Assembly (NCBI RefSeq): GCF_000701365.1
Contig: NZ_JNIK01000013.1
Location: 248,001-312,000 of the forward strand
Length of the DNA: 64,000 nucleotides
Direction of reading: 5' to 3'
Origin: Blastococcus sp. URHD0036
GTDB lineage: Bacteria; Actinomycetota; Actinomycetes; Mycobacteriales; Geodermatophilaceae
Both the position numbers and the translations under genes were made by a program. Positions 122-3,666 of this stretch are shown here, one piece after another. Numbering within the stretch: the stretch's first letter is position 1; each line of letters opens with the position of its first letter. Below the pieces are notes generated by a model that searched no databases, was not told the origin of the DNA, and saw nothing but the letters and a program-made list of their open reading frames with translations.

Positions 122-235
122 ATGTCGACCGATCTGATGGACATTGGTCCCATGGCGGCGACGGCGGTGCTCCTGGTGGGGCGGATCCACGTCGACCTGC
201 TGCGCGTGTGCGCCTCCCGCTGTCCGGGCTGCTGA
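122..235 (+). CDS. Cysteine-rich leader peptide upstream of TauE/SafE gene
   Basis: A 37-codon ORF ends with IHVDLLRVCASRCPGC and TGA. The core HVDLLRV followed by Cys codons matches the short leader peptides found upstream of many sulfur and cysteine genes in actinobacteria, some of which act as cysteine-responsive attenuators (family knowledge). The true start is unclear: ATG at 122, 137 or 152 and GTG at 167 or 176 are all in frame and none has a strong ribosome site. Three Cys codons in the last eight residues, and an imperfect GC-rich inverted repeat around 270-296 before the exporter gene, fit a translation-coupled attenuator. Regulation by cysteine is inferred. Confidence 0.6.
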   Translation: MSTDLMDIGPMAATAVLLVGRIHVDLLRVCASRCPGC

Positions 236-319
236 TCCTCCTCTGATCTGCCCGCTCCTCCCGTGCTGCCGCGCGCTCCGTCGCGCGCCGCGGCCCCGTG
301 ACACCGGAGTCCAGCCCTC

Positions 320-1315
320 GTGAAGACCCTGATCCTGCTCGCGCTCGCGGGCCTCGGCGCCCAGCTGGTCGACGGCAGCCTCGGCATGGCCTACGGCGTC
401 ACGTCGACCACGCTGCTGCTGGCCATCGGCACCAACCCGGCCGCGGCATCGGCGACGATCCACCTCGCCGAGATCGGCACCACGCTGATCTCCGGCGTCG
501 CGCACTGGAAGTTCGGCAACGTCGACTGGAAGGTCGTTGCCAGGATCGGCGTCCCCGGCGCCGTCGGGGCCTTCGCCGGCGCCACGGTGCTGTCCCACCT
601 CTCCACCGCGGTCGCGGCCCCCGTGATGTCGCTGATCCTGCTGTCGCTGGGCGCCTACCTGCTGATCCGGTTCACGCTGCGGGGCATCGACCGGCGCAAC
701 CTCGGCAAGCCGATGCGCAAGCGCTTCCTCGGGCCGCTCGGTCTGGTCGCCGGCTTCGTCGACGCCACGGGCGGCGGTGGCTGGGGTCCGGTCGGCACCC
801 CGGCGATCCTGGCCAGCGGCCGCATGGAGCCGCGCAAGGTCATCGGCTCGATCGACACGTCCGAGTTCCTCGTCGCGGTCGCGGCGAGTCTGGGCTTCCT
901 CGTCGCGCTCGGCTCGCAGGGGATCGACTTCGCCTGGGTGGCCGCACTCCTGATCGGCGGCATGATCGCGGCCCCGATCGCGGCCTGGCTGGTGCGCCAC
1001 GTGCCGCCGCGGCTGCTCGGCTCGCTGGTCGGCGGGATGATCATCCTCACCAACAGCCGCACGCTGCTGCGCAGCGACTGGCTGGACGCGTCCGACGGCG
1101 TCGCCGCCGCCGTGTACGCCGTCCTGGTCGTCATCTGGGCCGCCGCGGTCGCGTGGTCGTTCGTGCAGTACCGCAAGGACCGCGCGCTGGAGTCCGCCGA
1201 CGCCGTCGCCGCCGCGGCCACCGCCCTCGAGCGGGCCGAGCTCCTCGAGCCTCCGGTGGGGACCGAGGCCGACCGGCCCCTGACCGCCGGCCGGCCGAGC
1301 GCGCCGCAGGACTGA
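320..1315 (+). CDS. TauE/SafE family sulfite/organosulfonate exporter-type permease
   Basis: This 331-residue integral membrane protein has about eight hydrophobic helices in two halves. It shows the family features of an N-terminal LVDGSLGMAYG segment and a second-half VDATGGGGWGP segment, which form the repeated glycine-rich signature of TauE/SafE (PF01925) permeases. These proteins move sulfite, sulfoacetate or other small anions across the cytoplasmic membrane. The GTG start at 320 is preceded by GGAGT at 306-310. The cysteine-rich leader ORF just upstream supports a sulfur-related substrate, although the substrate itself cannot be read from sequence. The C-terminal tail is soluble and alanine/glutamate rich. 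The gene abuts the convergent CoA-transferase with no spacer. Confidence 0.88.
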   Translation: MKTLILLALAGLGAQLVDGSLGMAYGVTSTTLLLAIGTNPAAASATIHLAEIGTTLISGVAHWKFGNVDWKVVARIGVPGAVGAFAGATVLSHLSTAVAAPVMSLILLSLGAYLLIRFTLRGIDRRNLGKPMRKRFLGPLGLVAGFVDATGGGGWGPVGTPAILASGRMEPRKVIGSIDTSEFLVAVAASLGFLVALGSQGIDFAWVAALLIGGMIAAPIAAWLVRHVPPRLLGSLVGGMIILTNSRTLLRSDWLDASDGVAAAVYAVLVVIWAAAVAWSFVQYRKDRALESADAVAAAATALERAELLEPPVGTEADRPLTAGRPSAPQD

Positions 1316-3532
1316 TCAGCCGCTCGCCGGATCGGGCACGCGGGACCAGCGCTCGGCGAGGGTCCCCACCGCGGCCAGCCGCTCCCGTGCGGTCGGCCAG
1401 TGCGCGGCGACGGCGTCGTGGGGCAGTGCGACGACCGGCCCGGAGTACCCGCGGACGAGCCGGAACCGGCCGAACCGCGGATCGCGCACGACATGGGTCA
1501 TGTCGTTCTCGACCAGGAGCGGTTGGGTGAGGAAGCCCGCGTGCGGGGTGACCGGGCAGGCCGGGACCCCCAGGCACCCCAGCTCCCGGAGCCAGTGCTC
1601 CACCGGCTCCGCGGCGAGGGTCTCCGCGAGCCGCTCCGTGCCACCCACCAGCGCCGCCGCGGCCTCCTCCTCGCCGGGCGTGCGGGCGGCGATCGTCAGC
1701 CAGCCGTCGGCGGCCCGGTGGTGGCGCCGGAACGGGGACGGACCGCGGAAGTCGCGGCCCCCCGTGGGCGGCTCCGGACGCCCGGCGTAGGTGGTCAGCT
1801 CGGCGGCCTGGAGGAACGACGCCGTCGCCGCCAGGGACACCGAGGCGGCGGCGCCCGCGCCCGTCCGCGTGCGCTCCACGAGCCCGGCCAGCACCCCGAG
1901 GGCGGCCAGGCACGAGGTGCCGATGTCGATCGTCGGCGCGGTGATGACCACCGGCTCGTCGTCCCCGCCCTGCGCCACGGCCAGCCCCGACCGCGACTGC
2001 ATGACCGGGTCGAAGCCCGGCAGGTCCGCGAAGGGGCCGGACCGGCCGAAGGCCGAGACCGAGCAGCGCACCAGCGCCGGCGCGGTGGCGGCGAGCAGGC
2101 CGTCGTCCAGGCCCAGGGCCCGCGCCTTCGCCGGCCGCAGGTTGTCCACCAGGACGTCGGCCTCGGCGAGGAGCTCGAGCAGCTCCGCGCGGGCGTCGGC
2201 GCGCCGCAGGTCGACCTCGGCCACGAGCTTGCGGTGGTTGACCGCGGCGTAGGGGGCGGAGAAGACGCGGTAGGGGTCACCGCGGGTCGGCTCGACCTTC
2301 ACCACGCTCGCGCCGAGGTCCGCCAGCAGCGTGCTGGCGAACGGCCCGGCCACGAAGGTGCTCAGGTCCACCACCCGGAGGCCCGCCAGCGGCGCGTCCG
2401 GTCGCGGGCCCGACGGCTCCGGTCGCGCGGGCGACCCGGGCCAGACGTCCGCCGGCGCGACCAGCGCGTCGGGCCCGGGCAGCCGCCGCACCCCGGGGGC
2501 GCCGTCGAACGTCACCGGCACGCCGGGCTGGACGACGGACCCGGCGACCGGGTGCCGGAGGGCCACCGGCGGAGCGGCGGAGGCCAGCACCTCGCCGCCG
2601 AGCCACTCCGCGCGGTCGCTCACCGGCGCGGCCGGCACCCCGGCCCCGGCGAGCAGGTCCAGCCACTCCTGGCGCGGGCGGGTGGCGAAGGTCCGCTCCA
2701 GCTCGACGCCCACCATCGCGCCGATCTCGGGCAGGTGCAGGTTGGTGAACTCGCCGTCGACGCCGGGCAGGACCATCACGTCGAGCCGGTCCAGCACGGT
2801 CAGCGCCGGCAGGAAGAAGTCGACGGTGAGCGCCGACAGGTGCAGCGACCGGCCGTCGCCGCAGCGGTAGACGCGGAAGCTCGCCCCCGCGTTCAGCCGC
2901 CCGCCGGTGGAGACGATCCGGTCGACGTCGAGTCCGTCGACCGCCATGACGGCCAGGCAGGCGGCCGAGGCGTGCAGGCCGGTGACTTCCAGCGCCCGCC
3001 CGTGCCCGGTGGTGCGCGCCGCGAGGACCCCGGCCGTGGCGGTCACGGCACCCAGCGCCCCGTGCACGGCGGCGACCAGCGGGACGACGGAGGCGATCGG
3101 CGTGCCGGGGTCGGTGGAGGGGTGGAAGACGGCGAAGCCGCCGAGGGCACCGGTGAGGAGCGGGTCCGCCGGCAGGTCCCGCCAGCGGCCCGCCGAGCCG
3201 TGCGGCGGCATCGCCAGGTGCACCAGCCCCGGGTGTGCGGCTCCGGGATCCGCGGTCCCGGGCGCGCCCGGGACGGAGTCGTCGACGAGCAGATCGGCCC
3301 GGCCGGCGAGGTCCGCGACGACGCCGGCCCCTGCCGTGACGAACCGCTTCCCGCGGTCCCAGCACAGGTCCTCGGGGCCGGCCGGGGACTCCGGCGGCGC
3401 GGGAGCCCAGCCGGGCGGCACCACCCGGACGACGTCCGCGCCGAGGTCGGCGAGCAGCATGCCCGTCGTCCGCCCGGCCTGGCCCGTGGTGACCTCGAGG
3501 ACGCGTACCCCTTCCAACGGCGCCTGTGTCAT
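1316..3532 (-). CDS. CaiB/BaiF family CoA-transferase, two-domain fusion
   Basis: The 738-residue protein contains two consecutive CaiB/BaiF (family III CoA-transferase) modules. The first covers about residues 1-360 (GVRVLEVTTGQAGRTTGMLL...) and the second about 376-738 (GLRVVDLSTFVAGPFASTLL, then NHRKL, VDNLRPAK and GFDPVMQSRSG). Family members are normally about 400 residues and work as interlocked dimers, so this is a tandem, internally dimeric form. The second half keeps the GFDP-type Asp region; the first half is more divergent (LPADPLLTGALGG). It would transfer CoA between carboxylic acids, acceptor unknown. Its ATG overlaps the stop of the small upstream ORF in an ATGA. With the IclR regulator and divergent amidohydrolase it may serve catabolism of an aromatic or carboxylic acid (inference). 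Confidence 0.85.
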   Translation of the reverse strand: MTQAPLEGVRVLEVTTGQAGRTTGMLLADLGADVVRVVPPGWAPAPPESPAGPEDLCWDRGKRFVTAGAGVVADLAGRADLLVDDSVPGAPGTADPGAAHPGLVHLAMPPHGSAGRWRDLPADPLLTGALGGFAVFHPSTDPGTPIASVVPLVAAVHGALGAVTATAGVLAARTTGHGRALEVTGLHASAACLAVMAVDGLDVDRIVSTGGRLNAGASFRVYRCGDGRSLHLSALTVDFFLPALTVLDRLDVMVLPGVDGEFTNLHLPEIGAMVGVELERTFATRPRQEWLDLLAGAGVPAAPVSDRAEWLGGEVLASAAPPVALRHPVAGSVVQPGVPVTFDGAPGVRRLPGPDALVAPADVWPGSPARPEPSGPRPDAPLAGLRVVDLSTFVAGPFASTLLADLGASVVKVEPTRGDPYRVFSAPYAAVNHRKLVAEVDLRRADARAELLELLAEADVLVDNLRPAKARALGLDDGLLAATAPALVRCSVSAFGRSGPFADLPGFDPVMQSRSGLAVAQGGDDEPVVITAPTIDIGTSCLAALGVLAGLVERTRTGAGAAASVSLAATASFLQAAELTTYAGRPEPPTGGRDFRGPSPFRRHHRAADGWLTIAARTPGEEEAAAALVGGTERLAETLAAEPVEHWLRELGCLGVPACPVTPHAGFLTQPLLVENDMTHVVRDPRFGRFRLVRGYSGPVVALPHDAVAAHWPTARERLAAVGTLAERWSRVPDPASG

Positions 3533-3666
3533 GCCTCTCCGCCCGCCACCCCCCGGACGCTAGCGCCATCCGCACAAAGATGAGAGGGAAGGCTTTTCGT
3601 CGCGCCTTGGCGAACAGTCACGTGCCCGTCCGTCCCAGCGACCGCCACCACGTAGCGGTTGCTCAT
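3529..3666 (-). CDS. Small ORF coupled to the CoA-transferase gene (hypothetical)
   Basis: A 45-codon ORF starts at ATG 3666 (MSNRYVVAVAGTDGHVTVRQ...). A good ribosome site, GGGAGGA, lies about five bases before the start, just after the IclR stop codon at 3681. Its TGA overlaps the CoA-transferase ATG (ATGA at 3532-3529), as expected for translational coupling. The first 20 residues look like the start of a normal cytosolic protein, whereas the rest is low-information sequence. It could therefore be a real small protein, a translated leader that delivers ribosomes to the CoA-transferase, or the remnant of a gene cut by deletion. No family recognised. Confidence 0.45.
   Translation of the reverse strand: MSNRYVVAVAGTDGHVTVRQGATKSLPSHLCADGASVRGVAGGEA

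Follow-up and report, generated by a model that had tools for sequence, protein, structure and literature searches.

The short open reading frame (ORF) preceding a tauE-like gene in Blastococcus sp. URHD0036 is best read, from sequence comparison, as bringing a new gene under the Cys-leader attenuators already known from Actinobacteria (NCBIfam NF042934 and the polycysteine sORFs of mycobacteria). It is quite probably a cysteine-sensing leader that acts in cis on the tauE-like transporter gene. The window, i.e. the whole stretch of 64,000 nucleotides analysed, corresponds to positions 248001-312000 of contig C12 in a genome of 5.18 Mb. The features considered here are the following:

129..143, plus strand: conserved promoter-like box, a putative -10 region, CCGATCTGATGGACA (TCGATCTGGTAGACA in relatives), from the alignment of orthologous loci
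152..235, plus strand: leader ORF, MAATAVLLVGRIHVDLLRVCASRCPGC, probably leaderless, from sequence, ortholog comparison and profile search
188..208, plus strand: codons of the conserved core HVDLLRV, from sequence, ortholog and class comparison
221..223, plus strand: sensor Cys codon TGT (residue 24) at the universal position (Cys in 92/92 loci, TGT in 89/92)
236..304, plus strand: spacer from the leader to the tauE ribosome site, rich in C and poor in G among relatives by composition count
259..301, plus strand: predicted GC-rich hairpin with core 265-294 and no T run after it, from folding and terminator scan
306..309, plus strand: Shine-Dalgarno (SD) sequence GGAG of tauE, from sequence (GGAG in 89/92 loci, AGGA in 3/92)
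320..1315, plus strand: TauE/SafE (TSUP-family) transporter gene, GTG start, 331 aa (PF01925, 7.1e-42)

Conservation of the leader beside tauE was followed in a family set of 112 genomes, 95 of which contained a TauE match at E <= 1e-100. This gave 96 loci, two of them in genome G015; 94 were parsed, those of G108 and G107 (contig end) being left out. The leader was found 5′ of tauE in 92 of the 94 parsed loci. Among 80 named loci, a set that overlaps the family set, it was present in 35 of 36 Geodermatophilaceae loci versus 2 of 44 from other families; the species compared are not independent. The family is taken as Geodermatophilaceae from the named relatives of the tauE gene, which belong to Geodermatophilus, Blastococcus, Klenkia and Modestobacter. 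The initial annotation had staked its reading on conservation of the core upstream of orthologous tauE genes, and the core is conserved there in both sets. To judge from the loci compared, the leader-tauE pairing belongs to Geodermatophilaceae, with a second occurrence in Gordonia (G. soli and G. rhizosphera, the two loci outside the family, both with UGU). No leader was found at three parsed order-level TauE loci (L041, L046 and L047), and no motif at an unparsed one (L048); in the window's own genome, three further TauE genes (L001, L003 and L004) show no such leader.

The frame 122..235 translates as MSTDLMDIGPMAATAVLLVGRIHVDLLRVCASRCPGC, and its direct reading confirmed the HVDLLRV core and the three Cys codons that had been noticed among the final eight. 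The feature had been given as 122-319; the ORF stops, however, at 235, and position 319 is merely the end of the non-coding spacer. The start at 122 was rejected as well, since the box-to-start spacing in relatives points to ATG 152. This ATG, favoured by the orthologous loci, is most likely the start of a leader of 27 aa, and in relatives the frame is often shut immediately 5′ of the corresponding start. The additional N-terminal residues obtained from 122 are promoter region read as protein. Among the 86 family loci with a resolved start, the leader ORF varies from 26 to 43 aa and its N-terminal sequence is variable. The window leader has the Cys spacing CxxxCxxC (C-terminal CASRCPGC), with no adjacent Cys codons.

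These 86 loci, out of 92 with a leader, were resolved by a script that sought a TGGTAGACA- or TGGTAGGAA-like box and the next in-frame start; six were not resolved. The box lies 7-8 nt from the start in 77/86 loci, 6 nt in two and 1-2 nt in seven, and in some at least of these seven a second start matches the 7-8 nt spacing. The box does not match the sigma-70 consensus. A GTG or ATG placed 7-8 nt 3′ of a -10 box would be the anatomy of a leaderless transcript, and the leader transcript probably begins at or beside ATG 152 without a 5′ untranslated region. The box as promoter is supported by the locus L157 (the record of the named locus L083, Blastococcus MAG RYN_169), in which the leader is absent and the box lies 7 nt before the tauE GTG. 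This locus represents a natural deletion of the attenuator. The second TauE copy of G015 (L049) has no leader and retains a similar promoter-like box, and its frame has one internal stop. The box was also considered as a protein operator and rejected; 17 genome sites were found at three mismatches or fewer (control 2), the window's own site has three, and no regulon is claimed. Upstream of the leader, relatives such as L026, L032 and L043 carry an imperfect inverted repeat like TCCCAC...GTGGGA, a putative terminator or operator, close to the stop codon of the preceding gene.

When the positions of the Cys codons were compared across the tauE leaders, one of them proved universal (92/92), three codons before the stop in most, while the three Cys codons of the window leader were not a conserved feature: the 92 family leaders contain one Cys codon in 19 loci, two in 25, three in 42 and four in 6. 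At the universal position the codon is TGT in 89/92 loci and TGC in 3/92, and the remaining Cys codons of the same 92 leaders are all TGC (127/127). Window-wide, rough gene calls gave TGC 105 times and TGT 8 times.

The bias extends beyond tauE. A class search with a DNA pattern for DLxRV followed by four codons, TGY and a TGA close by matched 127 of 296 genomes and yielded at least 150 matches; of the 150 listed, 140 in frame were used and 10 out of frame (TGC 6, TGT 4) were excluded. The species are related, so that p-values say little, but the matches listed span many families; among those in frame, the sensor codon is TGT in 137/140 and TGC in 3, and the other Cys codons are TGC in 96/118 and TGT in 22. 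The three TGC matches among those listed do not have the usual residues preceding the Cys. A second search, in 41 genomes of genus g53, gave 110 matches, from which 98 core leaders were kept after exclusion of four out of frame (all TGC) and eight that share another conserved string, one defined so as to contain TGT. The sensor codon is TGT in 98/98 of these core leaders, and their other Cys codons are TGC in 62/73 and TGT in 11. Furthermore, a pyrimidine follows the sensor codon directly in 134/140 of the class matches listed and in 97/98 of the g53 leaders. The eight g53 matches set aside carry the string CACTGT before CCGTGA (peptide DLxRVxxxHCxP, then stop).

We read this constraint as selection on decoding or on the RNA rather than on the peptide, because the nascent chain is blind to the wobble base. 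UGU would be read through wobble by a single tRNA-Cys (GCA), hence more slowly. RNA folding may be part of the constraint, given that changing T to C at the sensor codon lowers its modelled unpaired probability from 0.52 to 0.48 (89 loci) and from 0.49 to 0.31 (27 loci). Pairing of UGUCCGG with the tauE SD was rejected as the cause: the consensus complementarity to CCGGA is strong, but there is no species-specific gain, the mean predicted pairing is 0.037, and the two elements do not covary, mismatched species pairing equally well or better. A +1 frameshift at UGU into the TGA overlapping the tauE GTG was also rejected as a conserved device, the spacer length modulo 3 being distributed 35/32/25 and the frames inconsistently open. 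A literature search that left most subscription papers outside its reach found no report of UGU invariance or of such a leader before tauE. As a tentative generalization, to which we give about one chance in three, the leader family would sense cysteine across Actinomycetes by one obligatory UGU, usually with a pyrimidine next, wobble-read in the poorest context about three codons before the stop and behind a nascent-peptide core that sharpens the pause. If so, a single synonymous change, UGU to UGC, would be enough to reset the response of many sulfur genes to cysteine together, or to abolish it. A near-absolute UGU, in genomes whose GC-richness goes with UGC for Cys elsewhere, offers a one-base handle on ribosomal cysteine sensing, be it through decoding speed, RNA structure or the nascent chain.

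The profile NF042934 matched five leaders of this genome at E < 0.01. One lies before tauE, and the other four precede genes for a sulfite/nitrite reductase, for DUF4395 together with a rhodanese, for a cysteine-dioxygenase-like protein and for a family-5 solute-binding protein. The dioxygenase-like gene does not fit a simple scarcity-induced circuit and counts against the main reading, because induction under cysteine shortage is not what one expects of an enzyme that breaks cysteine down. This same-family leader (L006; G000 C13:225167-225220, minus strand) lies before the gene matching PF05995 (1.3e-13).

The GC-rich imperfect inverted repeat noticed before tauE in the initial annotation corresponds to the hairpin predicted at about 259-301. 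For the spacer 236-304 the predicted folding energy is -22.9 kcal/mol (z -1.98), and the family spacers exceed their shuffles in structure (mean z -1.35; 27/92 below -2); the whole leader RNA 152-345 is no more stable than shuffles (z +1.21). Hairpins are present in the consensus folding of the 92 aligned leaders. A scan for intrinsic terminators returned no terminator-like site in positions 1-1400 of the window, an Rfam search gave five matches, none near the gathering score, and the solved structures searched contained no relevant match. The spacer composition is 54% C and 27% G. C exceeds G by at least 0.2 in 83/92 leader spacers versus 1/30 control upstream regions, the latter taken from rough gene calls (means 0.262 and about 0.01).

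The effect of a stalled ribosome was evaluated with a folding model that excludes pseudoknots. With the ribosome placed on the sensor codon, the SD became more accessible by over 0.1 in 42/92 loci and less accessible by over 0.1 in one. With a slightly different footprint, the modelled effect was small, the mean accessibility changing by +0.050 versus +0.008 with dinucleotide-shuffled spacers (p 3e-5). Pairing between the SD core GGAG and the leader-stop region is predicted (P>0.5) for 34/92 loci versus 10/92 after shuffling, typically through CTGAYTCC with GGAGTCAG. The window's own SD shows no such pairing (P 0.004) and pairs elsewhere in the spacer and leader, and under the modelled stall its accessibility falls from 0.26 to 0.18. 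SD masking is partly supported by these models, the folding support being moderate. We favour it as the output step, with Rho as a possible second layer, because the mycobacterial relatives are described as translation attenuation in the accessible parts of PMC13236596 and PMC9031893; as far as the former goes, RNA pairing conceals the downstream SD in polycysteine attenuators.

Control through Cys codons, as initially proposed, is well supported by the invariant sensor codon and by homology to the mycobacterial leaders, which are reported to be cysteine-responsive (cited in the accessible parts of PMC13236596 and PMC9031893); the hairpin is there, without a terminator. For the transcript start, the stalling, the direction of control and the transport role, we infer the following course. 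The transcript would begin at or next to ATG 152 and be translated at once without SD. If Cys-tRNA is ample, the ribosome would pass the UGU (221-223), terminate at 233-235 and depart; the freed RNA around and after the leader stop would then pair with the tauE GGAG and keep tauE closed, and the untranslated C-rich spacer may allow Rho to end the transcript. If Cys-tRNA is scarce, the ribosome would wait on the UGU, three codons before the stop, and cover the pairing RNA, so that tauE is translated. Its product would import or balance a sulfur oxyanion that feeds the synthesis of cysteine.

The same sensor could act on transcription instead of translation: after leader termination Rho would load on the C-rich spacer and halt the polymerase before or in tauE, and a waiting ribosome would hinder it directly or by keeping the region translated. 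The C bias of the leader spacers relative to the controls and the lack of an intrinsic terminator speak for this, and a Rho step has been proposed for the cys leaders of mycobacteria (PMC1262725, in its accessible part). However, a ribosome on the UGU reaches only about the leader stop and leaves most of the spacer exposed; the 60 nt after the stop of other class leaders are less biased (C 43%, G 31%, 27 loci), and the bias may merely keep the spacer unpaired. We regard Rho as the output with reserve, at roughly one chance in its favour for two against. Doubtful to a slightly greater degree is a sensor working as an arrest peptide, in which the core H-V/I-D-L-x-R-V would pause the ribosome from the exit tunnel, so that one Cys codon suffices. 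Such a single codon is indeed all that 19/92 leaders have. The core is constant in 92/92 leaders, while the N-terminal sequence and ORF length vary, and synonymous codons differ inside it (GAC 107 and GAT 33, and four Arg codons, among the class matches listed). Yet the nearly invariable wobble base of the sensor codon, invisible to the nascent chain, points to decoding or RNA, and core conservation is partly a matter of ascertainment, all sets having been found by the DLxR motif; the family loci without this motif number 2/94, both without leader. Since simple counting of Cys codons needs no conserved core, a nascent-chain contribution is a live rival or addition to cysteine sensing by decoding.

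Two readings dispense with cis control by cysteine. The CxxxCxxC spacing of the window peptide would suit a trans-acting small protein, e.g. a Cys-based metal or redox protein. This is highly improbable, because the Cys count varies from 1 to 4, one Cys alone is universal, and neither the conserved wobble base nor the fixed place beside tauE fits such a function. Open frames are common in GC-rich DNA (34 ORFs of at least 20 aa in the first 4 kb), so a chance ORF across a conserved promoter and 5′ region was weighed too. With peptide core, stop and sensor codon common to 92/94 loci, and a profile match to a curated leader family, this reading has a negligible probability and is already refuted by the conservation across the loci compared.

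The assignment of the downstream gene to the TauE/SafE family holds (PF01925, 144.1 bits versus a cut-off of 32.6); "exporter" is the family name only. The TSUP family includes importers as well (PMC5840216, PMC1266029, accessible parts). Among them, CysZ of Corynebacterium glutamicum is required for growth on low sulfate according to the accessible parts of the same papers. Like the window TauE, CysZ is a TSUP-family transporter, and a link to sulfate assimilation would be common to both; unlike the window TauE, CysZ sits in a cys operon, and the two are likened by family membership. Induction on cysteine shortage would suit an importer, and uptake of a sulfur oxyanion would fit the proposed regulation better than export. 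The leader thus gives a regulatory reason to examine TauE as a sulfur importer. It need not be the sole route, since the genome contains other candidate sulfate carriers (PF00916 matches and a SulT-like permease below its cut-off). Downstream, on the minus strand (1319-3535), lies a gene with two CoA-transferase family III stretches (PF02515).

The window leader resembles NF042934 (cis_reg_atten, putative leader peptide) in its 19-position core ending at the sensor Cys and in being a short ORF before sulfur-related genes. The alignment covers profile positions 1-19 of 19. It differs in scoring below the curated cut-off of 27 bits (21.3 bits for 37 aa, 22.3 for 27 aa) and in preceding a TSUP transporter; of five orthologous leaders from other family genera, three exceed this cut-off at 31.1-31.9 and two fall short of it at 25.4-25.6. 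Leaderless short ORFs of the polycysteine kind (Ms4527A, cysA2/Ms5788 type) were reportedly described in mycobacteria by Canestrari in 2020. With ORFs of this type, as far as the accessible part of Shell 2015 (PMC4633059) goes, the window leader shares Cys codons near the stop, a sulfur-gene context and a related core (NF042936, 18.9 bits); its putative leaderless start would be a further likeness. The window leader shares the lack of an obvious terminator and the pyrimidine-rich downstream RNA with the actinobacterial cys-operon leader peptides predicted by Seliverstov 2005 (PMC1262725), which belong to other lineages and targets and carry their Cys codons in runs, the accessible part of that paper mentioning no single invariant codon. 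The cysS attenuator uORFC-8-2 of Rhodobacterales (PMC8632094, accessible part) also uses uORF Cys codons as attenuation sensor, but has an intrinsic terminator and predominantly UGC, versus UGU in the window family. The leader before tauE would add a membrane transporter to the actinobacterial cysteine-attenuation circuits and, unlike the mycobacterial polycysteine sORFs, it has no run of adjacent Cys codons but a single invariant UGU at three codons from the stop.
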